Assembly (NCBI RefSeq): GCF_001547995.1
Contig: NZ_AP014690.1
Location: 1 to 64,000 of the forward strand
Direction: 5' to 3'
DNA: 64,000 bases
Source: Asaia bogorensis NBRC 16594
GTDB lineage: Bacteria; Pseudomonadota; Alphaproteobacteria; Acetobacterales; Acetobacteraceae
Under the pieces are notes generated by a model. The model did not search any database. It was not told where the DNA came from and saw only the letters and a program-made list of their open reading frames with translations. The number at the start of each line of letters is the position of its first letter. Position 1 is the stretch's first letter. This document shows, piece after piece, positions 43,325 to 62,506 of this stretch. A program made the position numbers and the translations under genes.

Positions 43325-43399
43325 GCCGGGTTAGCACAGTGGTAGTGCAGCGGTTTTGTAAACCGAAGGTCGGGGGTTCAAATCCCTCACCCGGCACCA
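43325..43399 (+). tRNA. tRNA-Thr (anticodon TGT)
   Basis: A full cloverleaf. Acceptor stem GCCGGGT pairs with ACCCGGC, the D stem is GCAC/GTGC, and the anticodon loop TTTGTAA has TGT at 43357-43359, which reads ACA (Thr). The T arm contains GGTTCAAATCC. Discriminator A and an encoded CCA end the gene at 43399. The first anticodon-stem pair is a G-A mismatch. The tRNA sits exactly at the border between chromosomal genes and the defence island/prophage, so its 3' end is a plausible integration site. Confidence 0.95.
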
Positions 43400-43567
43400 G
43401 AAATCCTTATATAGCAAGCATTCTGGAAAAGCGTATTGTGCGAACGAATCGAGCACGACGCGTGGCATGTCGGATAAAAAGCCGGATAAGACGCTAGCCT
43501 TTCTTGACCTTCAAGCGTGCAATCATTCCGTAAGGCGTTATGATCTGCTCATCAGAGGTGGGCAGGA

Positions 43568-44494
43568 ATGATGGTTGACATCAACTGGGTCTGGCAGAAA
43601 TTAAACGCCGAGCGCGAGTTCTGTGAACTGGATGGCGACGCGTTTGAACATCGCTTTCAGACCATTGCCAAACGGCTATGGAAAACAGACTTCACGGCGA
43701 CTATCCCGATGGGAAAGCGCGGTGACTTGAAGTGTGACGGGTTTCGCCACTCCACCGGGACAGTGTATCAATGTTATGGCCCTAGATATGGGCAAGCCAA
43801 TGTTGGTGCAGCACTTCTCAAGATAGACCAGGATCTCAAGGGCGCCAAAGAACACTGGGGTCAAGAACTTAAAGAATGGAAGTTCGTTTACAACCTCTAT
43901 CGTGACAAGGTGCCTTCTGAAATTGTGAGGAAGATAGCCGAGCTCAGCCGCGAGCTGGAGGTGTCTGCGGCTCCATTTGACCGCTCAGACATTCTGGGCA
44001 TGATCGAGCTGCTCGACGGCGTATCGCGCTCTGAGCTTTATGGTTCGGCTCCAAACGCAACAGCGATGGCAACCATAAACTACCATAATTTAGGGCGGGC
44101 TCTGACTGCTATCAGAAGAGCAATCTCGGCAGACCCACTCAAGCCCGTACCGCTCTCGGCATCATTGAGTGACAAGGTCAAGAAGAACGAACTGTCAGCA
44201 GCGACCGAGAGTTTTTTGACCATCGGGCAGGTTGGCGTGCCAAAGGTCGAGGCTTACTTAGCATCTCAGGCTGACCCAGAGGAATCTGAACGTATGGCTG
44301 AGGGCTTTAAGAACCACTATGAGAACTGTGTAGCGCGCGGGGATGAACCAGAGCATATATTCAGCGAGATGCTGAAATTTGCAGGGGGAGCTACTGGGCA
44401 ATCTGAGCGTGACGCTGCCGCTCTAGCGATCGTGACCCGTTTTTTCGTTACATGTCAGATTTTTGAGGTGCCTGCCATGAGCGAGGTCAAATGA
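43568..44494 (+). CDS. Putative effector component of an ABC-three-component (ABC-3C) system
   Basis: 308 residues, no signal peptide. The N-terminal third has a nuclease-like pattern: FEHRFQTIAKRLWKTDFTAT, then GDLKCDGFRHSTGTVYQCYG near residues 52-75. This resembles restriction-endonuclease-fold motifs (Asp, then Q-x-(K/Y)), but the expected Lys is missing. The C-terminal half is helical. Its stop overlaps the next start (ATGA at 44491), so it is coupled to the MC6-like gene. A second ATG at 43571 is better spaced from AGGA. The effector role is inferred from operon order, not from a proven domain. Confidence 0.6.
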   Translation: MMVDINWVWQKLNAEREFCELDGDAFEHRFQTIAKRLWKTDFTATIPMGKRGDLKCDGFRHSTGTVYQCYGPRYGQANVGAALLKIDQDLKGAKEHWGQELKEWKFVYNLYRDKVPSEIVRKIAELSRELEVSAAPFDRSDILGMIELLDGVSRSELYGSAPNATAMATINYHNLGRALTAIRRAISADPLKPVPLSASLSDKVKKNELSAATESFLTIGQVGVPKVEAYLASQADPEESERMAEGFKNHYENCVARGDEPEHIFSEMLKFAGGATGQSERDAAALAIVTRFFVTCQIFEVPAMSEVK

Positions 44495-44733
44495 TTCTTC
44501 CTACGAAGAATATTAGTCCTGATAGAGCTCTGCTCACCATCGCCGGGCAGATTTTTGCCCGGCTTGATGGCGCGTGTACGGTCTCCGGAGTGTGGGATGA
44601 GTTCCGGACAAAGCAGCAGTCTCGTCCAATTGCCTATGGGTGGTTTATTTTAGCCGTGGACCTGCTTTTTCTGATGGGCCTGGTCTGGCTCGATCAAGAC
44701 GGGCTTTTACGACGAAACGTTGGGAGGGAATAA
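44491..44733 (+). CDS. ABC-3C middle component, MC6-like
   Basis: An 80-residue adaptor. Its opening MILPTKNISPDRALLTIAGQ and the later AYGWFILAVDLLFLMGLVWL follow the pattern I know for ABC-3C middle component 6 (L-P-x-K-x-I-x-x-D-R-A-L-L, then W-F-x-L-A-x-D-L-L). Such components link the ATPase to the effector. Overlaps the effector gene by four bases, and its TAA is immediately followed by the GTG of the ATPase gene. Confidence 0.7.
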   Translation: MILPTKNISPDRALLTIAGQIFARLDGACTVSGVWDEFRTKQQSRPIAYGWFILAVDLLFLMGLVWLDQDGLLRRNVGRE

Positions 44734-46464
44734 GTGCTCCATCGTCTCTCAGCAGATCATTCAAATTTCAAGGCTTTGTCGTTTAAACCAGGCCTGAACA
44801 TATTACTTGCTACTCGCGTGAGTAATGAGCCGCAAGTTGGTAGCCTTCGTAGCCGGAATGGGGCTGGAAAATCGAGTGTGGTTGACATTGTGCACTTCCT
44901 ACTTGGGGGTAAAGCGGAAGGCGCACTTACATCTACGGCTCTCGAAGACTGGAAATTTACACTCGACCTCGATGTTGGACCCTCGCGCTTATCTGCCACC
45001 CGCTGCGTAAAGGACGGTAAGAACATTAGTTTAGAAGCCAGCGACGGAACCTCGAGGCTGATCACGAATACTAAATGGTGTGAGACGCTTGGCGAAGAAT
45101 GGTTTGGACTGACAAAAAAAAGGGAACGAGGTGGCGCGACATTTCGGCAGCTATTCAGTTATTTCGTGCGTCGAAAACGTGATGGAGCGCTCGATAATCC
45201 TACGCGGACTTTTCGCGCTCAAAAAGCCGCTTCCTCAGAGACAGCGTTAGCCGAGCTTTTCGGGCTAGACTCCTCATTGGTCAGGCATCTTCATCAAATT
45301 AAGATATCGTTGCGGCAGACTAAAGACGCTCAGCGGGCATTGTCTGATCTTGATAAAAATGCTGCGGCTGGCTCCAAAAAGGCAGATCTTGAAGCTCAGT
45401 TAGAAGCACAAATCGCCGCTGTGAGGATCGGTCGAAATCGGCTGCGTGAGCAAATAGAGACTTTCAACGTGTTGCCGGCGTTCCGTGATTTGGAAGTTGA
45501 GTTAGCCAATCTCAATAACGCATTTCGCGATTTGTCCGATCAGGATATAATCGATACAGAATCTATCGAAATCAATAATCGTACACTTGAAGACGAACGA
45601 ATTATTGATAAACCTGATTTGTCACGCCTTTTCTCCGAGGCGAGGATAATCTTTCCTGAGATAGTGACGGATAGATATTCTGAGGTTCAAAAGTTTCATG
45701 AATATCTGATTCGAAACCGGCAAAGCCATCTCCAATCAGAGATTGAGGCAGCGCAGCGCCGGATCAGGGGGCGAGATCTTTCACGAGAGGAAGTCGAGTC
45801 AAGGCGCCGGGAAATTATAACTGCGCTCCGCGCAAGCGGTCCGGCAGAGGAGTTGCTACAACTCCGTGACGAACTCTCAGAGCGAGAGGCCGCTTTGCGT
45901 CAACTCGAAGGCCGCCTCCAAGAGGCTCAGAGAATCGAAAAGTCTATTGAGAAACTTGCTCTAGACTTAGAGGACGCTGTGCGAGCTCTGCGGCAAGACA
46001 GACGGGAGCGCGCAAGCGTTGTCGAAATGGCTAGCGCGACTTTTTCAGAGATTTCAGAACGACTTTACGAGAAGCCAGGCTCACTTGCCATCTCGGCCAC
46101 CGACGCGGGCCTACGCTTCCTACCAACGACACCTGCTGACGCGAGTGCTGGTGTTATGAGTATGGAGATTTTCTGTTTTGATTTGACAATTGCAACTTTG
46201 GCACGCCGTCGAGGCGAAGGGCCAGGCTTCATCATACACGATAGTCATCTCTTCGAGCCTGTCGACGGTCGTCAATTTGCACGGGCGCTTCAGATCGCCG
46301 ACGATTTCGCAAAATCCGAGGGAATCCAATACATCGCACTATTAAATTCAGATGAACTTGAGCGTGCTGAACGCGAGTCTGGAGTATCTTTCACAGAAAG
46401 TATTATTGAAACTGAACTTTCCGATACCCAGTCGGGCGGTCTTTTTGGTCTCAGATTCGATTGA
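44734..46464 (+). CDS. SMC-like ATPase of an ABC-3C system (DUF2326 type)
   Basis: 576 residues. Walker A is SRNGAGKSSVVD (residues 40-51). Long coiled coil with many Arg/Glu heptads occupies about residues 185-450 (for example ELLQLRDELSEREAALRQLE). The C-terminal half of the head has the DUF2326 pattern GPGFIIHDSHLFEPVDGRQF. It starts with GTG directly after the MC6-like stop, with GGGAGGGAA as ribosome-binding site. In ABC-3C systems this ATPase senses a trigger and releases the effector. It is convergent with the retron, about 105 bases away. Confidence 0.75.
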   Translation: MLHRLSADHSNFKALSFKPGLNILLATRVSNEPQVGSLRSRNGAGKSSVVDIVHFLLGGKAEGALTSTALEDWKFTLDLDVGPSRLSATRCVKDGKNISLEASDGTSRLITNTKWCETLGEEWFGLTKKRERGGATFRQLFSYFVRRKRDGALDNPTRTFRAQKAASSETALAELFGLDSSLVRHLHQIKISLRQTKDAQRALSDLDKNAAAGSKKADLEAQLEAQIAAVRIGRNRLREQIETFNVLPAFRDLEVELANLNNAFRDLSDQDIIDTESIEINNRTLEDERIIDKPDLSRLFSEARIIFPEIVTDRYSEVQKFHEYLIRNRQSHLQSEIEAAQRRIRGRDLSREEVESRRREIITALRASGPAEELLQLRDELSEREAALRQLEGRLQEAQRIEKSIEKLALDLEDAVRALRQDRRERASVVEMASATFSEISERLYEKPGSLAISATDAGLRFLPTTPADASAGVMSMEIFCFDLTIATLARRRGEGPGFIIHDSHLFEPVDGRQFARALQIADDFAKSEGIQYIALLNSDELERAERESGVSFTESIIETELSDTQSGGLFGLRFD

Positions 46465-46560
46465 ATAATTAAGTCGCCGAGAGAAAATCGATCACGCGAA
46501 ATATACGATCAGACACGCATACCCTACACTTCGTACTCGCCAAATTCGTATCTTTATACA

Positions 46561-46574
46561 ATGACAATTGTCAT
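46561..46574. repeat. Perfect 14-bp palindrome at the end of the retron gene
   Basis: ATGACAATTGTCAT reads the same on both strands. It overlaps the stop codon of the reverse transcriptase gene, in the convergent gap between the two defence systems. It could be a protein-binding site or chance; it is too short and T-poor to be a terminator. Confidence 0.35.
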
Positions 46575-48280
46575 GTAGTAAATCCAGAATCCAATTCTGA
46601 CAGAAAGTCATTGAACGCGGTAAAGTCGATCACACTGGCATTGTCATGCACGTAACTTGCTAACTTGATTTTCCCGAAATTCTTTGTTTCATCCAATATT
46701 TTTTCTGCTGAAAAAGTCTTTCCATTTATGGTTACTGATTTTACATCATCGGGTAGTAAGTCCTCAATTGTAGTTTCCTTTTTTATCCCTACATGAGGAG
46801 TTTTCACAAGTGTTAATTTTTCTGTAATCTTATGTATTATTGTGGGGTCGGAGATCTGTATATTCTTTTTGTATAGGCTGTTTATCGCACAGATAGTATC
46901 TTTTCCTCCACTATCATTGTCGACGACTATTATTATCTTATTTTCATTAGGAGAGACTCTAAATTTACTAGATCTTTTCTTGTACAGGTTAAGGAAGTTT
47001 TTCAAATTCCCGGTCCCGCCAGTTAATCCAAGTGTTTTAGATGATGCTGAGTGAAATCGGAAAAATCGAGGTATTATTTCCAGTTTTCCAGAGTTGATTC
47101 GTTTAAGGTGAGGTAGAGATAAGGTCGAAGATCTGATGGCAGATTTTATATAGAGTATGTCAGAAGGCCCTTCCGTAAGGATAATGGGCTTTTCGTTCAT
47201 ATAAAAATTTTTAAATATCAAGAAATCTATGAATAGGTTATTGAATTGAGAATTTTTATCGTTCTTATATTCTGTAGAAAATTTTGCAGATCTTTTTCTA
47301 ATATAGCTAATGTAGGATAACCTTCCCTCTATTACTCTCATGTAATCAGGTTTCTTTTTTTTATGACCGAGACTCGACGGGCAATTTTCCCCATAGTCGG
47401 ACGTAATATCCGGTATGTGTGGTATTTTTCCTTTAAATAGGTAATCGCACATTGCTCGTGTTTGGAGGTAGTATTCTCTCGGAACGCTGGGGTGCTTATT
47501 GACGACTAGCCCAGTAACCATTTGCCTGCTCGAGCGTAGGCTCATGCGGGTTTTGGCCAAATTTGGTGGTAGCCCGGAGCGCGTCAGAATAGAGAGCAAT
47601 TCGGGAGCAATAACCCACCCCTGAGGCACCGTTGTTGTAACTGACGCGATATCTGAGGGGAACTCTTTTAGGTTGGTCGATATGGTGATGTCATCGGCAT
47701 ATCGGCTATACGCGCACCTCCTGTGGCCTAAGAACCTAGACATGCGATTGTCGAAAAATTGGGAAAGAAGGTTTGCTATATGTGGCGACGTTGGACTGCC
47801 CTGAGGCAGTACATTGTTGAAGCAGGCTATCTGCGCAATAGTGGTGGCAACATCTGGATGAAGTGAGAAATCGTGATCTTTTATGAAAAAGGATCGTACT
47901 CTTCCAAAGTTATAATTATCAAAAAACTTCTCAATATCTATGTTAAAGACGTATCTTCTTTTCCTATGTAGTCTAGCGTTGTCGTATATATTGACTTCGC
48001 GCCTGAATCCCAAATGTAAAGATCGGTGAATTCCAGACGCTTTTTCGATATCATCTTCGCATTGATATAAGATCGCGAGTAGTCGAGTCTGTAGATTCTT
48101 CAGGCGTACGCAAGGAGCCATTATCTGGCGTGTACCACCCCTTTTCTTGCTAATGCAGAACTTGCTATATTTGGATACATCCGGAATTTTGAATAGTGTA
48201 TAAGCTAGACTGCTCGGTTTAACTCCTAGGAGGTGAGCTAAATCTGAGCGATTTCTACAGGCTTTCAAATCGTCTAGCAT
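46571..48280 (-). CDS. Retron reverse transcriptase with C-terminal TOPRIM domain
   Basis: 569 residues, AT-rich compared with its surroundings. The RT domain shows KKRGGTRQIMAP, the retron NAxxH motif (NARLH, about 101-105), motif A NIDIEKFFD, motif B LPQGSPTSPHIANLL, catalytic YADD (about 194-197), and the retron thumb motif VTGLVVN (about 255-261). The C-terminal part has TOPRIM signatures TEGPSD (about 369-374) and VVDNDSGGKD (about 452-461), giving the Glu and DxD metal site. A predicted msr-msd RNA lies directly upstream. TOPRIM nucleases cut or nick DNA, so the protein may join cDNA synthesis and effector in one chain. Confidence 0.88.
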   Translation of the reverse strand: MLDDLKACRNRSDLAHLLGVKPSSLAYTLFKIPDVSKYSKFCISKKRGGTRQIMAPCVRLKNLQTRLLAILYQCEDDIEKASGIHRSLHLGFRREVNIYDNARLHRKRRYVFNIDIEKFFDNYNFGRVRSFFIKDHDFSLHPDVATTIAQIACFNNVLPQGSPTSPHIANLLSQFFDNRMSRFLGHRRCAYSRYADDITISTNLKEFPSDIASVTTTVPQGWVIAPELLSILTRSGLPPNLAKTRMSLRSSRQMVTGLVVNKHPSVPREYYLQTRAMCDYLFKGKIPHIPDITSDYGENCPSSLGHKKKKPDYMRVIEGRLSYISYIRKRSAKFSTEYKNDKNSQFNNLFIDFLIFKNFYMNEKPIILTEGPSDILYIKSAIRSSTLSLPHLKRINSGKLEIIPRFFRFHSASSKTLGLTGGTGNLKNFLNLYKKRSSKFRVSPNENKIIIVVDNDSGGKDTICAINSLYKKNIQISDPTIIHKITEKLTLVKTPHVGIKKETTIEDLLPDDVKSVTINGKTFSAEKILDETKNFGKIKLASYVHDNASVIDFTAFNDFLSELDSGFTT

Positions 48281-48283
48281 ATC

Positions 48284-48423
48284 GGATCGTGAACACTCTT
48301 TTGCGATAACGGAGTCATTTCGACATTAAGATATCGTATTCCTGTTGGGTATACTACAAGCAAGCGGCGCCTGCGTACTTCTCAACCACCGAGAAACTCA
48401 GCGGAAAAATCTGTTCACGATCC
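48284..48423 (-). ncRNA. Predicted retron msr-msd RNA bounded by a1/a2 repeats
   Basis: Read on the minus strand, GGATCGTGAACA (48423-48412, a1) and TGTTCACGATCC (48295-48284, a2) are perfect 12-base inverted repeats enclosing about 116 bases. The second ends three bases before the RT start codon. This matches the a1/a2 layout of retrons. Just inside a1, CCGCTGAG-TTT-CTCGGTGG folds into an eight-base-pair hairpin with a UUU loop, typical of msr. A second hairpin is GCAGGC-GCC-GCTTGC. The rest, with CGATA/TATCG, is a small msd candidate. The branching G is not certain; the first G after a1 is in AGA rather than the usual AGC. Confidence 0.7.
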
Positions 48424-48624
48424 TGTATATAGAGATGGCGCAAACCATCTAAGATTGCAATCCTATGAACTCAATACTTTTTTAAGGTCGCTGGCTTGCG
48501 AGTTATTGCCGAACCGATGATAGGCTTCCGGATTGCATATAAGCAGTCCGGTCTTGGATCGCCTCAACCCCTGCCCGGTAGACGAAACCCATGTTGAGAT
48601 GGATCCTGAGGCCGGCGACACCCT
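48424..48624. other. Intergenic region between retron and integrase
   Basis: 200 bases that should hold the retron promoter (minus strand). A hairpin GATGG-tttgcg-CCATC lies at about 48433-48448. It may also hold a phage attachment site, because it directly follows the integrase stop, but no second copy of any candidate core is visible in the window. Confidence 0.4.
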
Positions 48625-49620
48625 TCACCGTATCCGCCGTGACAACCAAGCCGCATAGATTTCGGTGGTTTTGACCGAGCTGTGACCGAGTTGCTGGGAT
48701 ACATCATAGATCGAGGCGCCTTGTTGCAGGGCACGGATGGCGTAGGTGTGTCTCAGGTCGTGGCAGCGGAAGTGGCGGGCTTTGTCCGGTATGGCGCTGG
48801 CTAAAAGCACGCGGAAGCGGCCTGGGACGTTGGTGTAGCGCTGTCCTGACGGGTTGCGGAAGACGTAGCCGCTCGCGTTTTCCGGGCGGCTGCGTTGCAG
48901 CTCTCTGGCCTGCCTGGGCGAGAGTCTGACCACGCGGGGCGATCTCGTCTTCGTTCTGGCGAAGGTCACGGTGGGGCAGGGGGCGTTGAGGTCCAGCTGC
49001 TCCCATGAAAGCGAGGCGGCCTCTTCTTGCCGGCAGCCGGTCCGGGCCAGAAAGCGAATCATGTCGCGCATGCCGGGTGGAGCGCGACGCGTCAGGCGTG
49101 CGAGGTCGCGTAAGGCCACGGGCCTGATGGGTTCGCGGCGCTCCTTGATCTCTTCCATTTCGTCCGGCACCGGATTGGCGGTAATCCAGCCGGCGCGACG
49201 CGCCACGCGCATGATGCGGCCCATCACCATCAGGTCGCGGCGTATGGTGGCACCGGAGGTCTTGGTGCGTCGTCTGGCCGCAACGAACTCATGCACGTCG
49301 CGGGAGGTAATCAGGCTGATATCCCGCCCCGCGAAATAGGGGTGGAGCTGCCGCAGGCTCGTGCGGTATCTCGTTTGGGTGCTGGGGCGCAGATCGGCAA
49401 ATTGCAGCTCCTCCCACCGCACCACGGCGTCTTCCCAGTTCCTGACCTCAGGAGGCTTTAAGCCGGCGCGTTGATCTTCCGCCTTTTCGAGCAGCTCTTT
49501 GAGCCGCTGCCGGGCTGTACGCCGATCAGTCGTGCGTAGCGATCGGCGGATGTCGCGCCCTTTGATCTGGATCCGAGCGTAATAGGTGCCGTTTGCGGCC
49601 TGGTAGAGATTGCTGGACAC
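48625..49620 (-). CDS. Phage tyrosine-type integrase
   Basis: 331 residues. The N-terminal arm-binding part is SNLYQAANGTYYARIQIKGR, the core-binding SAM-like domain covers about residues 60-150, and the catalytic domain has Arg in RTGCRQEEAASL, HDLRHTYAI (His and Arg), and the Tyr nucleophile in HSSVKTTEIYAAW. It starts with GTG, with AGGAGG about 13 bases upstream. Its start lies inside the end of the HTH gene upstream (overlap of about 163 bases), so the operon is very compact. It probably integrates the prophage at a site outside or at the edge of this window. Confidence 0.93.
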   Translation of the reverse strand: MSSNLYQAANGTYYARIQIKGRDIRRSLRTTDRRTARQRLKELLEKAEDQRAGLKPPEVRNWEDAVVRWEELQFADLRPSTQTRYRTSLRQLHPYFAGRDISLITSRDVHEFVAARRRTKTSGATIRRDLMVMGRIMRVARRAGWITANPVPDEMEEIKERREPIRPVALRDLARLTRRAPPGMRDMIRFLARTGCRQEEAASLSWEQLDLNAPCPTVTFARTKTRSPRVVRLSPRQARELQRSRPENASGYVFRNPSGQRYTNVPGRFRVLLASAIPDKARHFRCHDLRHTYAIRALQQGASIYDVSQQLGHSSVKTTEIYAAWLSRRIR

Positions 49621-56065: not shown

Positions 56066-57289
56066 TCAGGCCTTTTGTTTTGAGCTCTCCTGGCCTCGGC
56101 GAGAACCATCGAGCTCGCACCACAGCATGTGAGCGGCAGCCACAATGGCTGGACCGATGAAGAGGCCTACAAGGCCGAGCATGTGCAGGCCCCCCAGGAT
56201 GGCAATCATCGTGTGCAGGAACGGCAGGCGGGTCTCGTCGGAGATAAACTTCGGACGGGCAAAATGCTCACCGCAGAACAGAACGAAGAGTCCCCAGCCT
56301 GCAACGGCAATGCCCATGTTCATCGACCCTGAAGCCGCAACGATGCCGCCGACGAGAATTGCCGCCGGATAGCCGCAGAAGGGGATCGACGCAGCAATGG
56401 CTAGAAGGATCGTCAGGATGACCGCATGGCTGGCATCTGCAATGAAGATCAAAGGCGAGCAGACAAGCGCCTCGCCGATACCAACGAGAACCAGTCCGTT
56501 GACGGCACCACGAATGCTGCGAACGATGTGCAGAAGAATGTCGTCACGCTGGGTGAGCTCGATACTGACCCTGCGAAGAGATGAAGTGACACGTCCGTAG
56601 GAAAGAAGGCAGCATGCTGCGGTCAGCATGGCAATGAAAAAGGCTTCCAGGAGATGCGGGATACTTTTGAGGATCTTGAAAGCCGCGAGCCCCGCGATCT
56701 TGGAGACCGACTTGGCCTGGGCCTTGGCCATCTTCATGATCTGTTGCGGGTCGATTTTGTTTGCGAGGCTTGCTGGAAGCACGCTTTTGACCTTGTCGAT
56801 CCGGGTTGAGACGGCAGGCGGCAGGGCTGGCGTCGCACTGTCGCCAGAGCCTGCTTCTTCCCCATTATGATCTGTCGGCTCGGGCTTCCCCGCACTCTCG
56901 TCGTTCTGCGGCGATGCGGCACGATCTTGCGCGGCTGCGTCAGGACCGTTTGCTGGGGCCGATGTCGGGTGAGGAGCGATGAGATGGTGGGCTTTTTCCG
57001 AAAGCGATCCGATTTCGGTCACCGCGCCATAACCCGCTATGCCAGCCATGATCGTGAAGAGCACGCAGGTCAGTCCGATAAGGCTGATGGCCGCCATCTT
57101 CGCACCGATAAACTGTCCGAGTTTGCGCTGTATCGGCCGTACAGCAATGGCGATGACTGCGCCCCATGCCAAAGCGACAATAAGCGAGAACGAGATCCAG
57201 ATTGCCCCGGCATAGATCGCAACGCCCATGCTGATGAGTGCGAGATACTTTACCCAGGGATGACGTTCAGAAATGAGACGAGAGGCCAT
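56066..57289 (-). CDS. AI-2E/PerM family permease (phage-embedded cargo)
   Basis: 407 residues, about seven membrane helices. The paired segments at the N-terminus (YLALISMGVAIYAGAIWISF ... GAVIAIAVRPIQRKLGQFIG) and the C-terminal ASIPFCGYPAAILVGGIVAA fit the AI-2E family. The periplasmic loop near residues 100-150 is Pro/Ala/Asp-rich. AAGGAAC precedes the start. It is transcribed against the phage genes, behind the MFS transporter gene (55 bases apart), so the pair looks like a small cargo operon. Confidence 0.82.
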   Translation of the reverse strand: MASRLISERHPWVKYLALISMGVAIYAGAIWISFSLIVALAWGAVIAIAVRPIQRKLGQFIGAKMAAISLIGLTCVLFTIMAGIAGYGAVTEIGSLSEKAHHLIAPHPTSAPANGPDAAAQDRAASPQNDESAGKPEPTDHNGEEAGSGDSATPALPPAVSTRIDKVKSVLPASLANKIDPQQIMKMAKAQAKSVSKIAGLAAFKILKSIPHLLEAFFIAMLTAACCLLSYGRVTSSLRRVSIELTQRDDILLHIVRSIRGAVNGLVLVGIGEALVCSPLIFIADASHAVILTILLAIAASIPFCGYPAAILVGGIVAASGSMNMGIAVAGWGLFVLFCGEHFARPKFISDETRLPFLHTMIAILGGLHMLGLVGLFIGPAIVAAAHMLWCELDGSRRGQESSKQKA

Positions 57290-57344
57290 CTGACCATGTG
57301 TTCCTTTTATCGGTTGGTGTGCGGTCGGAGTCGGGAGCGCAATG

Positions 57345-58799
57345 TTAAGTGGCCGCGGGAGGGACAGGATCGACCGTAACCGCCACCCCGCTTTGCAACA
57401 GGTCTTTAGCCTCTTCCGTACTGCCTACCGCTGGCGGTGAGCCTCGCAAAGGCATTCCTGCCGTTTCACGAACGGTCAGCATTGTAACGATGCCGATGAA
57501 TGCTGCGCCCATCAGGTACCAGGCGGGCATGTCCAGATATGTTGTCTTCTTTACCAGCCAGGCCATCAGAAGCGGTGTCGTCCCGCCGAAGAGAGAAACG
57601 GACAAGTTGAATGCTACCGAGAGGGCCGTATAGCGAATCGGGGTGTAGAACAATGCTGGCAGTGTAGATGGCATGGAGCTCGTGAACCCGGCCAGGGCAA
57701 TGCCGAGCAGCATCAATCCCAGAAAGATCAAGCTATCGGAGTGACTCTGAATGAGATGGAAACAAGGGATTGCAAGAAGCAGTAAGGCAGCTGACGCGCC
57801 CAGGATCATTGGTCGGCGCCCGATGCTATCGCTCAGGAAACCGCCAATAATATTGATCGGCATCATGAGGATCATCACGACGATGATGAGGATCAGGCCC
57901 TTGCTCTCTGCGTAGCCAAGAGAAACGGTCATATAGCTCGGGATGTAGGCGAGCAGCATATAATCAGTGACATTAAAAACGAGAACGAGGCCCACGCACT
58001 TCGCCAGTTGCCGCCAGTGCATGGCAAACAGGTGGCGCCAGCCCGGACGGGCATTCTCGCGCTTTTCAGCTTCGAGCGCATACGCTTTGAATGAGGGTGT
58101 CTCTTCCAGTCTTGTGCGGGCGTACAGGCCCAAAAGCCCCAGAGGTGCCGCGAGAAGAAAAGGAATACGCCATCCCCACGCGAGCATCGTCTCTTCGCTC
58201 AGACTCACCTGCAACAGCGTCACGAGACCAGCGCCGGCGACATATCCTGCAAGCGTACCGAACTCGAGCCAGCTTCCCATCAAGCCTCTACGACGATCGG
58301 TCGAGTATTCGGCGATGAACGTTGCGGCGCCTCCGTATTCTCCACCGGTCGAAAAGCCCTGAACGAGGCGCGCTGCAAGCAGGGCTATCGGGGCCCAAAT
58401 ACCGATAGTGGCGTAGGAGGGAATCAAACCGATCGCAAAAGTCCCAAGCGCCATGGCAATCATCGTGGCGGCCAGCACTCGCTGCCGACCGTATTTATCA
58501 CCGAGCGGACCGAAAATGACTCCACCGATAGGCCGTATGAGGAAGGCGATCGAGAACGTGGCGAGCGTGGCAATCAGGCTTATCGAGGCGTCGGTGTCTG
58601 GGAAAAAGATCTTGCCCAATGTCACGGCGATATAGCCGTAGACCCCGAAATCGAACCACTCCATGGCATTACCCAATGCCGCGGCACCGACGGCACGCCT
58701 GAGCATGTCAGAGTCGACTACGGTGATATCCTGATGGTTGAGCTGGCGCCTGTGTTTGAACCATCCGAGATGTGGATGAGAACTTGGATCTTTCGTCAT
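57345..58799 (-). CDS. MFS transporter, ProP-like (metabolite:H+ symporter family)
   Basis: 484 residues, 12 membrane helices. GNAMEWFDFGVYGYIAVTLG and KIFFPDTDASISLI, then GDKYGRQRVL and VQGFSTGGEYGGAATFIAEY are signatures of the ProP/ShiA/KgtP metabolite:H+ symporters. Likely substrates include proline/betaine or organic acids. Its ribosome-binding site GGAGGGAG lies inside a perfect eight-base-pair hairpin (58807-58830). First gene of the minus-strand cargo pair within the prophage. Confidence 0.88.
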   Translation of the reverse strand: MTKDPSSHPHLGWFKHRRQLNHQDITVVDSDMLRRAVGAAALGNAMEWFDFGVYGYIAVTLGKIFFPDTDASISLIATLATFSIAFLIRPIGGVIFGPLGDKYGRQRVLAATMIAMALGTFAIGLIPSYATIGIWAPIALLAARLVQGFSTGGEYGGAATFIAEYSTDRRRGLMGSWLEFGTLAGYVAGAGLVTLLQVSLSEETMLAWGWRIPFLLAAPLGLLGLYARTRLEETPSFKAYALEAEKRENARPGWRHLFAMHWRQLAKCVGLVLVFNVTDYMLLAYIPSYMTVSLGYAESKGLILIIVVMILMMPINIIGGFLSDSIGRRPMILGASAALLLLAIPCFHLIQSHSDSLIFLGLMLLGIALAGFTSSMPSTLPALFYTPIRYTALSVAFNLSVSLFGGTTPLLMAWLVKKTTYLDMPAWYLMGAAFIGIVTMLTVRETAGMPLRGSPPAVGSTEEAKDLLQSGVAVTVDPVPPAAT

Positions 58800-59483: not shown

Positions 59484-61184
59484 ATGCTGGATCTGAGCCG
59501 GAAGGACTGGGAGGCGCGTGTGCGTGCCGGCCGGTCCCTCCTGCCGGATCTGAAGCCCGTCAATCCCGATCTCGCGGCGCGGGCCGTGCGCTGCTTCGAT
59601 CGGCTGCGCATCCCTGATGTGCCCGGCACGCCTGCCATGGCGCAAGCCTGCGGCGACTGGTTCCGCGAAATCGTCTCGGCCCTGTTCGGCGCGCTCGACC
59701 CCGACACAGGTGTGCGTGCCATCCAGGAGCTGTTTCTTCTGGTACCGAAAAAGAACAGCAAGACCACGAACGGCGCAGGGCTGATGCTGACGGCCGTGAT
59801 CGTGAATGAACGCCCCAACGCCGAGTTTCTGATCGTCGCACCCACCAAGGAAATCGCCGATCTCGCCTTCAGCCAGGCGCTCGGCATGGTGCAGAACGAC
59901 CGCACGCTGATGCGCTGCTTTCAGGTGCAGCAGCATCTCAAGCGCCTCAGGTTTCATGCGACAGGCGCGACCCTGCAGGTCAAGGCCTTCAGTCCGGACG
60001 TCATGACCGGCGTAAAGCCTGCAGGCGTGCTGGTGGACGAGCAGCACGTCATCGCCATGCGCAACGATGCGGGCAGCGTCATGCGCCAGATACGCGGCGG
60101 CATGATCTCGCAGCCCGAGGCGTTCCTCGCCATCATCACCACCCAGAGCGACGGGCCGCCTCGGGGCGTGTTTGCGCAGGATCTGATCCGTGCCCGCGAG
60201 ATACGCGACGGCAAACGCTTCCAGCCGGTTCTGCCGGTCCTGTACGAATTGCCGCCCGATATCCAGCAGCCCTCCAAACTGCCCGGCGAGGCCGCGCCCT
60301 GGGAAGATCCCGCGTACTGGCCGATGGTGCTGCCCAATCTCGGCCGGTCGATCACGCTGGACCGCCTGAAGCGCGAGTATGAGGACGCCCGCGAGAAAGG
60401 CGTGGGCGAGCTGGCCAGCTGGGCGTCGCAGCATCTCAATGTCGAGATCGGCCTTGCCCTGCGCTCCGATCGCTGGGTGGGGGCCGATTACTGGCAGGGC
60501 GCAGGCGATGACACGCTGACCCTCGAGGCCCTGATCGAACGCTGCGAGGTGATCGTGGCGGGCATCGACGGCGGCGGCCTCGACGATCTGCTTTCGCTGG
60601 CAGTTCTCGGGCGCGATACCATCACGGGCCAATGGCTGCACTGGCAGAAAAGCTGGGTGTTCGAGGGCGTGCTGGCGCTTCGCAAGCGTGAGGCCAGCCA
60701 GCTGCGCGACTTCGAGACACAGGGCGATCTGGTCATCACCGCCGAGCCCGGCACCGATATCGAGCAGCTGGTGGCGGTCCTCGGCACGATCGACCATAGC
60801 AACAAGCTCGCGATCGTCGGGCTCGACCCGATGGGCGTGGGCGCCATTGTCGATGCGCTGGCCCAGATCGGCATCGCCCATGAGCGTGTGGTGGGCATCT
60901 CTCAGGGCTGGACGCTCTCGGGCGCCATCAAGACCGCCGAGCGCAAGCTGGCAGATGGCACGCTCTGCCACGGGGCAAGGCCGATCATGGCCTGGGCCGT
61001 CTCGAACGCGAAGGTGGAGCCCAGGGGCAATGCCATCATCATCACCAAACAGGCGGCGGGCTATCTCAAGATCGACCCGCTGATGGCGCTGCTCAATGCG
61101 GTGACGCTGATGAGCCGCAACCCCGAGCCGCCCGGTGGCGGCCGAATGGATGATTTTCTTTCAACCGGGATCATTGCCGTATGA
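59484..61184 (+). CDS. Phage terminase large subunit
   Basis: The ATP-driven DNA packaging motor and nuclease, 566 residues. The Walker A-like motif is LVPKKNSKTT (about residues 90-99) and Walker B is GVLVDE (about 181-186). The RNase H-like nuclease domain begins at VIVAGIDGGGLDDLLSLAVL, with further acidic residues at VGLDPMGVGA. The type is that of HK97-like phages. It overlaps the portal gene by four bases (ATGA at 61181). Confidence 0.92.
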   Translation: MLDLSRKDWEARVRAGRSLLPDLKPVNPDLAARAVRCFDRLRIPDVPGTPAMAQACGDWFREIVSALFGALDPDTGVRAIQELFLLVPKKNSKTTNGAGLMLTAVIVNERPNAEFLIVAPTKEIADLAFSQALGMVQNDRTLMRCFQVQQHLKRLRFHATGATLQVKAFSPDVMTGVKPAGVLVDEQHVIAMRNDAGSVMRQIRGGMISQPEAFLAIITTQSDGPPRGVFAQDLIRAREIRDGKRFQPVLPVLYELPPDIQQPSKLPGEAAPWEDPAYWPMVLPNLGRSITLDRLKREYEDAREKGVGELASWASQHLNVEIGLALRSDRWVGADYWQGAGDDTLTLEALIERCEVIVAGIDGGGLDDLLSLAVLGRDTITGQWLHWQKSWVFEGVLALRKREASQLRDFETQGDLVITAEPGTDIEQLVAVLGTIDHSNKLAIVGLDPMGVGAIVDALAQIGIAHERVVGISQGWTLSGAIKTAERKLADGTLCHGARPIMAWAVSNAKVEPRGNAIIITKQAAGYLKIDPLMALLNAVTLMSRNPEPPGGGRMDDFLSTGIIAV

Positions 61185-62506
61185 GCATCGCCACGAGACT
61201 GCGCGGCATGGCCTACAAGGCCGCAAGCGCGGCTTTCCAGTCCGTTACGGGCGTACCCCTCACCGATCTGCGCCTCGGCGCTTTCATGGCGGGCGGGCCA
61301 AGCATTTCCGGCCAGCGTGTCTCGGTCGATACCGCGCTGCAACTCGATACGGTCTGGGCCTGTATCCGGCCCCTGTCCGAAACCATCGGCTCGATGCCGC
61401 TCAAGCTGCACGAACAGCAGGGTGACGGGCAATCGTCCCTGGCCCGCGATCACCCGCTTTACCGGGTGCTGGCCCGCGCGCCGAATGCCGATATGACGCC
61501 CATCGAGTTCTGGTCGTGCATGGCCGCGTGCTGCCTCGCCTGGGGCAATGGCTTCGCCCAGATCATGCGGCGCGGTGACGGACAGATCCTGGCGCTCAAT
61601 CCGCTGCGCCCTGACCGGATGACGGTGCAGCGCGATCCCAGCACCGGGGCGGTGGTCTATCGCTACAGCTATCAGGGCAAGACACTCGTGCTCGATGAGG
61701 GCGACATCTTCCACATCAAGGGCTTCTGTTTTGACGGGCTCATGGGCATTTCGCCGATCACGGCGGGACGGCAATCCATCGGGGCCGCGCTCGCCGCCGA
61801 GGAAACGGCCGGGCGCATGTTCCGCAACGGCCTGCTCTCGCAGACCTATATTTCCGCTCCGACCTATCTGAGCGCAGCGCAAAAGGAACAGGCAAAGGCA
61901 ATCCTCGCCGATTACTCGGGCGCGATCAACGCGGGCAAGACGCCCCTGCTCGAGGGCGGGTGGAAGGTCGAAAGCATCGGACTCAGGGCCGAGGATCTGC
62001 AACTCCTGCAAACCCGTTAGCTGGGCGTCGCCACGCTTTGCCGGTGGTTCGGGGTGCAGCCGGTCATGATCGGGGCGATGGAAAAATCCACGGCCTGGGG
62101 CACCGGGCTGGAACAAATGAATCTCTGGTTCCTGCAATATGGTCTCATGCCCTGGCTGCAACGCATCGAACAGGCCGTTTCGCGCTGCCTGCTCTCGCCT
62201 GCCGAGCGTGACCGGTATTTCGCCCGGTTCAATGTCGATGCGCTGTTGCGCGGCGATAGCACGGCGCGGGCGGGCTACATGCAGACCGCGCTGCGCTCGG
62301 GCTGGATGACCGTCAACGAGGCCCGCGCCAATGACAACCTGCCCCCCATGCCGGGCGGCGATGTGCTCATGGTGCAGGCGCAGATGATCCCGCTCACCGA
62401 TATCGGCAAGCCCCGCAACCTGACCGCCACAAGCGGGCAAGATCCGCCTGCCAGCAACCGACCGCCCGGCACGCAATCCGGCATCACGGGAGACGACAAT
62501 GAATGA
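61181..62506 (+). pseudogene. Phage portal protein (HK97 family) interrupted by an in-frame amber codon
   Basis: The reading frame codes for an HK97-type portal protein. The first 279 codons (61181-62017) include RVSVDTALQLDTVWACIRPL, LSETIGSMPLKL and the ISPITAGRQSIGAALAAEE region. At 62018-62020 a single TAG interrupts it after QLLQTR. The same frame then continues without shift (LGVATLCRWFGVQPVMIGAM ...) to the stop at 62504-62506. The family normally reads through here as (Q/K)-x-x-(E/I)-(I/V)-x-R-W-F-G-V-P. The change fits CAG to TAG. Either the portal is inactive, or suppression reads it, or the base is an error. 441 codons in total with the TAG. Confidence 0.8.

Follow-up and report, generated by a model that had tools for sequence, protein, structure and literature searches.

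The retron locus and its RNA

The window analysed here is the whole stretch of 64,000 nucleotides from Asaia bogorensis NBRC 16594. On its minus strand, a gene (46571-48280) encodes a fusion of a retron reverse transcriptase (RT) with a Toprim domain (569 aa), as identified by matches in PADLOC, NCBIfam and PDB. The gene is directly preceded by the 140-nt core of a retron RNA (48284-48423, minus strand), which comprises msr-msd and the arms a1 and a2 and is recovered by the covariance model R1 described below. Retrons are anti-virus systems; in the present type, a single protein reverse-transcribes a small RNA and also carries a toxin part that cuts RNA.

The a1 arm (GGATCGTGAACA, 48412-48423, minus strand) is the perfect complement of the a2 arm (TGTTCACGATCC, 48284-48295, minus strand), from which it is separated by a spacer of 116 nt. 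After a2, the three nucleotides GAT precede the ATG at 48280, the earliest ATG, GTG or TTG past a stop in the RT frame. An earlier interpretation of this DNA (the sequence-only reading) had claimed a perfect 12-bp repeat enclosing about 116 bases on the minus strand, with the second copy ending three bases before the RT start; both claims were borne out. The eight-base-pair hairpin with a UUU loop that it placed after a1 was also recovered. When the 140-nt RNA was folded, as that reading had proposed, the msr stem-loop of 8 bp (48386-48404, minus strand), two pairs of which are G-U, was present in the MFE structure as well as in the centroid structure and began seven bases 3' of a1. The MFE of the RNA was -46.8 kcal/mol (z -4.0), and none of 200 shuffled sequences was equally stable. 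Across the 64-kb window, no inverted repeat other than a1/a2 combines 12 perfect base pairs with a 60-250 nt spacer.

Just upstream of a1, a perfect 6-bp hairpin (AGATGG/CCATCT, 6-nt loop) is located on the minus strand at 48433-48450; by eye it is absent from the Sphingomonas relative described below. A search of the minus strand from 48424 to 48700 revealed no sigma-70-like promoter, and scans of 46400-48700 returned promoters (8 found vs 5.4 expected) and terminators (2 found vs 2.0 expected) in numbers near chance.

The RT-Toprim protein

The best four PADLOC matches of the 569-aa protein were all RT-Toprim_I-C models, the top one reaching 1.9e-182 over residues 2-564. The NCBIfam model NF038237 (retron_Ec67_fus) gave 599 bits against a cut-off of 450, residues 2-557 matched the protein of Retron Ec67 (Eco2) in PDB (9i2f, 4.7e-93), and Pfam revealed the RT part alone. 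The names type I-C and type I-B used here follow the PADLOC model names and PMC10568477.

In a 91-row alignment with Eco2 among the rows, the YADD of the window protein corresponds to Y194 A195 D196 D197, and the Toprim effector part extends over about residues 365-569 (46574-47188, minus strand, boundary approximate). The Toprim residues E370, G371, D374, D454, D456 and E506 are conserved, and E374, D378, D460, D462 and E515 in Eco2 numbering are all kept. Overall, 193 of 553 aligned residues are identical between the window and Eco2 proteins. S513 of Eco2 is replaced by threonine, at a position that is variable across the family. H281, which in Eco2 stacks on the msr loop, is replaced by aspartate and is a histidine in 43 of the 91 rows. 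R332 in the trimer loop, the alanine exchange of which is described in PMC12405507 as abolishing defence by Eco2, has no counterpart in the window protein. Since this position is a gap in 79 of the 91 rows and an arginine in only 3, the R332 trimer loop is, as judged from the alignment, not a mark of the type I-C family. For the lysine named K562 in that paper, the Eco2 copy L237 has an aspartate under the same number, and this residue hence lies outside the comparison.

Conservation of the RNA in related loci

Relatives were taken from the best 80 of 558 confirmed stretches in genome_contigs, the best 80 of 157 in viral_contigs, five of 140 plasmid records and searches of further genomes. The test for a1/a2 arms covered the 106 loci that scored 230 bits or more and lay on the plus strand of the retrieved sequence. 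Eight stretches in minus orientation lay outside this sample, namely L001 and L019 (window itself), L004, L013, L015 and L020 (G021), and L213 and L234 (G676); the minus-strand genomes left out in this way carry the RNA according to R1 (L243 of G021, L213 of G676). The arm filter was passed by 98 of the 106 loci (83 distinct sequences) and failed by eight, including three untestable ones with a contig end or Ns (L016, L107, L156). Among the 103 testable loci, which include near-identical ones and the same place taken twice, paired arms of 9 bp or more (counting G-U) and a GAG adjoining a2 were found upstream of the RT in 98, vs 6 of 515 shuffles, and arms of 12 bp or more in 87, vs 1 of 515. 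The other five failures (L070, L091, L099, L105, L159) match R1 with 45.8-93.3 bits.

For covariation analysis, the 82 rows remaining after L077 was dropped were thinned by similarity to 66, and the window was added, giving 67 rows. Standard pairs are formed in 97.0% of the cells of the a1/a2 and msr stems, vs 27-42% when the partners are slid by 1-3 columns. Two-sided changes were observed in 11 of the 12 a1/a2 pairs, a figure which, like the other a1/a2 covariation figures, is biased upward because the rows were chosen partly for having a1/a2 arms, and in 7 of the 8 pairs of the msr stem, which played no part in row selection. The covariation score was 0.663, compared with 0.270 (sd 0.010) for shuffled alignments. 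Among five measures of covariation, the number of pairs with two-sided changes was equalled by 63 of 500 shuffles and is non-discriminating, and the remaining four were reached by none of the 500. Unaided, RNAalifold recovered the pairing of the arms (11 of 12 pairs) and of the msr stem (7 of 8), as well as two pairs adjoining a2. The A-G at the end of a1, the G following a1 and the GAG before a2 are invariant in the 67 rows, and a GCRTARGAG-like stretch before a2 is conserved. Covariation of the a1/a2 stem in related loci, the absence of which the sequence-only reading had named as a refutation, is thus present, and that refutation is excluded.

The nearest relative found is located in Sphingomonas sp. 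AP4-R1 (L046, plasmid NZ_CP053347.1, WP_171747265.1), with 62.6% amino acid identity. In a phylogenetic tree, the window and this relative form a clade with a support of 100 and a long stem (1.04) within a largely alphaproteobacterial part, and the forks around this clade have supports of 82-92. The arms of the Sphingomonas RNA (GGACCGTGAACA and TGTTCACGGTCC) differ from those of the window by one compensatory pair (T-A to C-G), and its msr stem shows a two-sided change relative to the window (C-G to U-A).

Detection by covariance models

The sequence-only reading had also proposed a check with retron covariance models. Rfam 15 gave no match to the RNA at this locus, either at the gathering threshold or at E-values up to 10, and a model therefore had to be made. 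R1 is a home-made covariance model, not an official retron model, built from 64 rows without the window, L046 and L021. It recovers exactly 48284-48423 with 62.3 bits (E 3.9e-16), the next match having 9.7 bits, and across the 3.2-Mb genome this interval is the sole match at E-values up to 0.001. The RNA of Eco2 itself (L237, 89.7 bits) and those of L236 and G021, all absent from the model, are also detected.

When R1 was applied to 385 genomes of the class, five matches were obtained, each directly upstream of an RT-Toprim match; those of G342, G540 and G631 are represented in the model, and those of the window's genome and G676 are not. With stricter filters in the same 385 genomes, none of the five matches was an RNA copy apart from an RT-Toprim gene. 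A protein match was present in 27 of the 385 genomes, 22 of them without an R1 match; many of these protein matches cover the RT part only.

It could be supposed that the 12-bp repeat arose by chance or serves regulation, upstream of an RT that uses another RNA, and the lack of an Rfam match at the locus would agree with this. However, a perfect 12-bp repeat at the same place arose in only 5 of 20,000 dinucleotide-shuffled versions of the 320-nt region around the RT start. The covarying arms, the R1 match and the invariant A-G ending a1 and GAG before a2 also argue against this explanation, which is barely credible.

Broken RT-Toprim frames were encountered in four genomes (G040, L021/L242; G021, L020/L243; G676, L213; G540, L214/L233), and in two of these four the breaks lie near the RT-Toprim junction. 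In all four, the retron RNA upstream is still matched by R1. Naturally separate RT and Toprim genes were considered for G040 and G021 and dropped: the frames are broken near the junction, and visual inspection revealed no slippery site common to them. These split frames are more simply explained by decay or sequencing error.

Prophage setting and exchangeable slot

The tRNA-Thr gene of the window is located at 43325-43399, and its last 48 bp (43352-43399, plus strand), the 3' part of the gene, are repeated at 87879-87926 of the same contig and form the attachment site. Between the repeats, genes for an integrase, a DnaB-type helicase, a terminase, a portal protein and a head protease are found within the window. 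The segment from repeat to repeat is, by this gene content, a prophage of about 44.6 kb. Its tyrosine integrase gene (48625-49620, minus strand; Pfam Phage_integrase 9.7e-20, PHROG integrase 6.1e-64) adjoins the retron. The portal gene seems to be divided into two frames (61181-62020, 279 aa, and 62054-62506, 150 aa), the first of which was searched and matches portal families; with its portal gene apparently split, the prophage may be defective. Frames for a permease-like protein and an MFS-type transporter, read from translations, lie amid the phage genes at 56066-58799 (minus strand).

On the other side of the retron, an ABC-three-component (ABC-3C) defence system was identified with Pfam and PADLOC (PDC-M68) at 43568-46464 on the plus strand. 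It consists of a CTD10 protein (43568-44494), an MC6 protein (44491-44733) and a DUF2326 ATPase (44734-46464). Together, the retron and the ABC-3C system occupy the slot between tRNA-Thr and integrase. The two are neighbours in one cargo slot, and type I-B retrons are described in PMC10568477 as pairing an RT with an OLD-type ATPase-Toprim protein; RT-Toprim and ATPase could therefore be imagined to act as one system. Against this, the genes are convergent, differ in G+C content (50.6% for the ABC-3C genes vs 40.3% for the retron) and match a separate described family (PDC-M68, DUF2326, CTD10, MC6). As far as annotation goes, the flanks of the Sphingomonas relative (3 kb upstream, 0.8 kb downstream) are free of ABC-3C genes. 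A joint system is very improbable, and the ABC-3C genes were not counted in the retron.

The phage genes to the right of the slot have a G+C content of 61.8% and the chromosome to the left 60.4%. The tRNA end was present in all eight other genomes of the genus that were searched, an RT-Toprim match in none of the eight, and the integrase of the window in four, in one of which it is broken. In the two of these genomes in which the slot can be followed from end to end (G001, L263; G007, L260), DNA similarity to the window ends at 43488 and resumes at 48625 (G001) or 48631 (G007). In between, G007 holds a type I restriction system and a DUF5655 gene (PADLOC PDC-S18), and G001 holds genes for a cytosine methyltransferase, an ATPase and a response-regulator-like protein (just below the Pfam cut-off). 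In the other two, G005 (L261) and G008 (L262), a Hint-domain type protein adjoins the integrase; the Pfam search covered that of G008 and gave a match. Because sister genomes hold other genes at this place, flanked by resumed DNA similarity, the retron occupies an exchangeable prophage slot between tRNA-Thr and integrase (43489-48630 of the window). Exchangeable slots are likewise described for P2- and P4-like elements in PMC9122126. In G001, the cytosine methyltransferase gene is accompanied by genes for a 711-aa HATPase and the 313-aa response-regulator-like protein (L263, 4074-7144), a pair with a single PADLOC match of 0.0007 that is possibly an unnamed defence unit.

Predicted layout of the msDNA

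For the Eco2 RNA, PMC12405507 gives the branching guanosine at G15, the stem at 20-42, a single-stranded part at 43-51 and, from position 52, an msd of 67 nt. This layout was placed on the window by eye, anchored at the invariant G following a1 and the GAG preceding a2. The predicted branching guanosine, which would prime through its 2'-5' linkage, is the invariant G at 48411 (minus strand), equivalent by position to rG15 of Eco2. With Eco2 boundaries (starting 9 nt past the msr stem and ending at the A that precedes the G adjoining a2), the predicted msd template covers 48297-48376 (minus strand), i.e. about 80 nt. The same rule applied to the 67 rows predicts msd lengths of 61-98 nt with a median of 71 nt. 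The msd had been thought small by the sequence-only reading; this did not hold, and a predicted msd of this size is ordinary for the type I-C family. By analogy with Eco2, branched msDNA would be made from this locus.

The predicted msd DNA of the window folds no better than shuffled sequences (z about +1), and 64 of the 67 rows have a lower z. Across the family, the median fold is -6.5 kcal/mol and the median z -0.49. The hairpin-less msd was considered as a sign of an odd retron, an idea that was dropped given that the msd is poorly structured in much of the family too.

The lack of msd DNA structure beyond chance could also indicate a worn-out retron, in which RNA and RT belong together and msDNA production and killing have been lost. 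The seemingly divided portal gene of the prophage and the existence of relatives with broken RT-Toprim frames point in the same direction. Against such a loss, the 569-aa frame is intact with the tested catalytic residues kept, both helices have been maintained through compensatory changes relative to the Sphingomonas retron, and a weakly structured msd is frequent across the family. A retron that has lost its function is quite unlikely.

Spacing between a2 and the RT gene

The sequence-only reading rightly called the distance from a2 to the RT start unusually short: at 3 nt, the gap in the window and in the Sphingomonas relative is the smallest of 82 rows, the median being 20 nt. Tight gaps recur, with 10 of the 82 rows having 10 nt or fewer in several branches, including Methylobacterium, Mesorhizobium, Rhizobium and Acidobacteriota. 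For these counts the start codons were picked by rule, which passed over a TTG at 3 nt in L211 and an ATG at 4 nt in L103. Shine-Dalgarno matches of at least 4 bases were found in 1 of the 10 tight-gap rows vs 24 of the 72 others. In the window, a2 covers positions -15 to -4 of the RT start, and no Shine-Dalgarno match was found. A speculative and rather unlikely proposal is that in the clade formed by the window and the Sphingomonas relative a2 fills the place of the ribosome-binding site, RNA folding and RT-Toprim translation excluding each other. If true, each transcript would serve either as template or as message, and the ratio of inhibitor to toxin would be set without a separate regulator.

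Overall reading and proposed mechanism

The best explanation of the locus, with a probability of about 0.93, is a prophage-borne retron of type I-C (Eco2/Ec67 family) that serves as defence cargo and works as Eco2 does. Anatomy, homology and covariation were observed here, and the transcript start, msDNA synthesis, branching, inhibition, trigger and RNase activity are inferred from Eco2. The central claim of the sequence-only reading, a retron msr-msd RNA, is supported by the adjoining RT-Toprim gene, by the covariation of both helices and by the recovery of the exact interval with R1. As judged from these comparisons, the retron is a divergent but regular member of type I-C and a distant relative of Eco2.

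If the locus works like Eco2, a transcript starting upstream of 48423 would carry the RNA and then the RT-Toprim gene. The arms a1 and a2 would pair, and the RT would prime on the 2'-OH of G48411 and use 48297-48376 as the template for about 80 nt of DNA, so that a branched RNA-DNA molecule results. This molecule would stay bound to the RT-Toprim protein, with the Toprim nuclease held inactive. An infecting phage that damages or removes the msDNA would release the Toprim part to cut RNA, and the cell would no longer support the phage. For Eco2, PMC12405507 reports escape mutations in denB, which implicate the nuclease DenB, and describes the isolated Toprim domain as toxic and able to cut RNA.

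Among the papers searched, none concerned this locus by title or by the start of the abstract. The locus confirms that raw sequence is enough to recognise an RNA of the retron kind. It also contributes a deep branch to a family for which structure and RNase effector were solved only recently; the view of how retrons work is unchanged by it. The 67-row alignment provides a working description of type I-C retron RNAs; Rfam 15 has no match at this locus. The prophage slot from tRNA-Thr to integrase holds different genes in sister genomes, some of them for defence.

Comparison with known systems

The retron of Sphingomonas sp. AP4-R1 shares with the window the RNA layout, the 3-nt gap and the stretch TTGAGAAGTACGC after the msr stem. 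Unlike the retron of the window, it is plasmid-borne, has no ABC-3C system annotated in 3 kb upstream or 0.8 kb downstream, and its RNA folds a long msd hairpin, whereas the fold of the window RNA is without such a hairpin.

In complete E. coli genomes, an RT-Toprim retron at least 99% identical to L048 is present in 510 of 5,426, and 28 more have a match at 60-80%.

Type I-B is represented by Retron-Eco8, with an OLD-family effector. It resembles the window in combining a Toprim-type effector with a retron RT, but PMC10568477 describes its ATPase-Toprim protein as encoded by a separate gene, and its RT is only distantly related to that of the window (E 0.0068).

Retron-Eco2 (Ec67) of Escherichia coli (PDB 9i2f, 9i2g, 9s1f, 9lm3) has in common with the window an RT-Toprim fusion of similar length with the same catalytic residues, a1/a2 arms, a G and then an A after a1, and an RNA directly upstream of the RT gene. 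According to PMC12405507, its RNA, which is matched by R1, also has a single msr stem with a 3-nt loop and an msd of similar size (67 nt vs about 80 nt predicted for the window). The window differs from Eco2 in its a2-RT gap of 3 nt, in the sequence of its arms and in having neither R332 nor H281.
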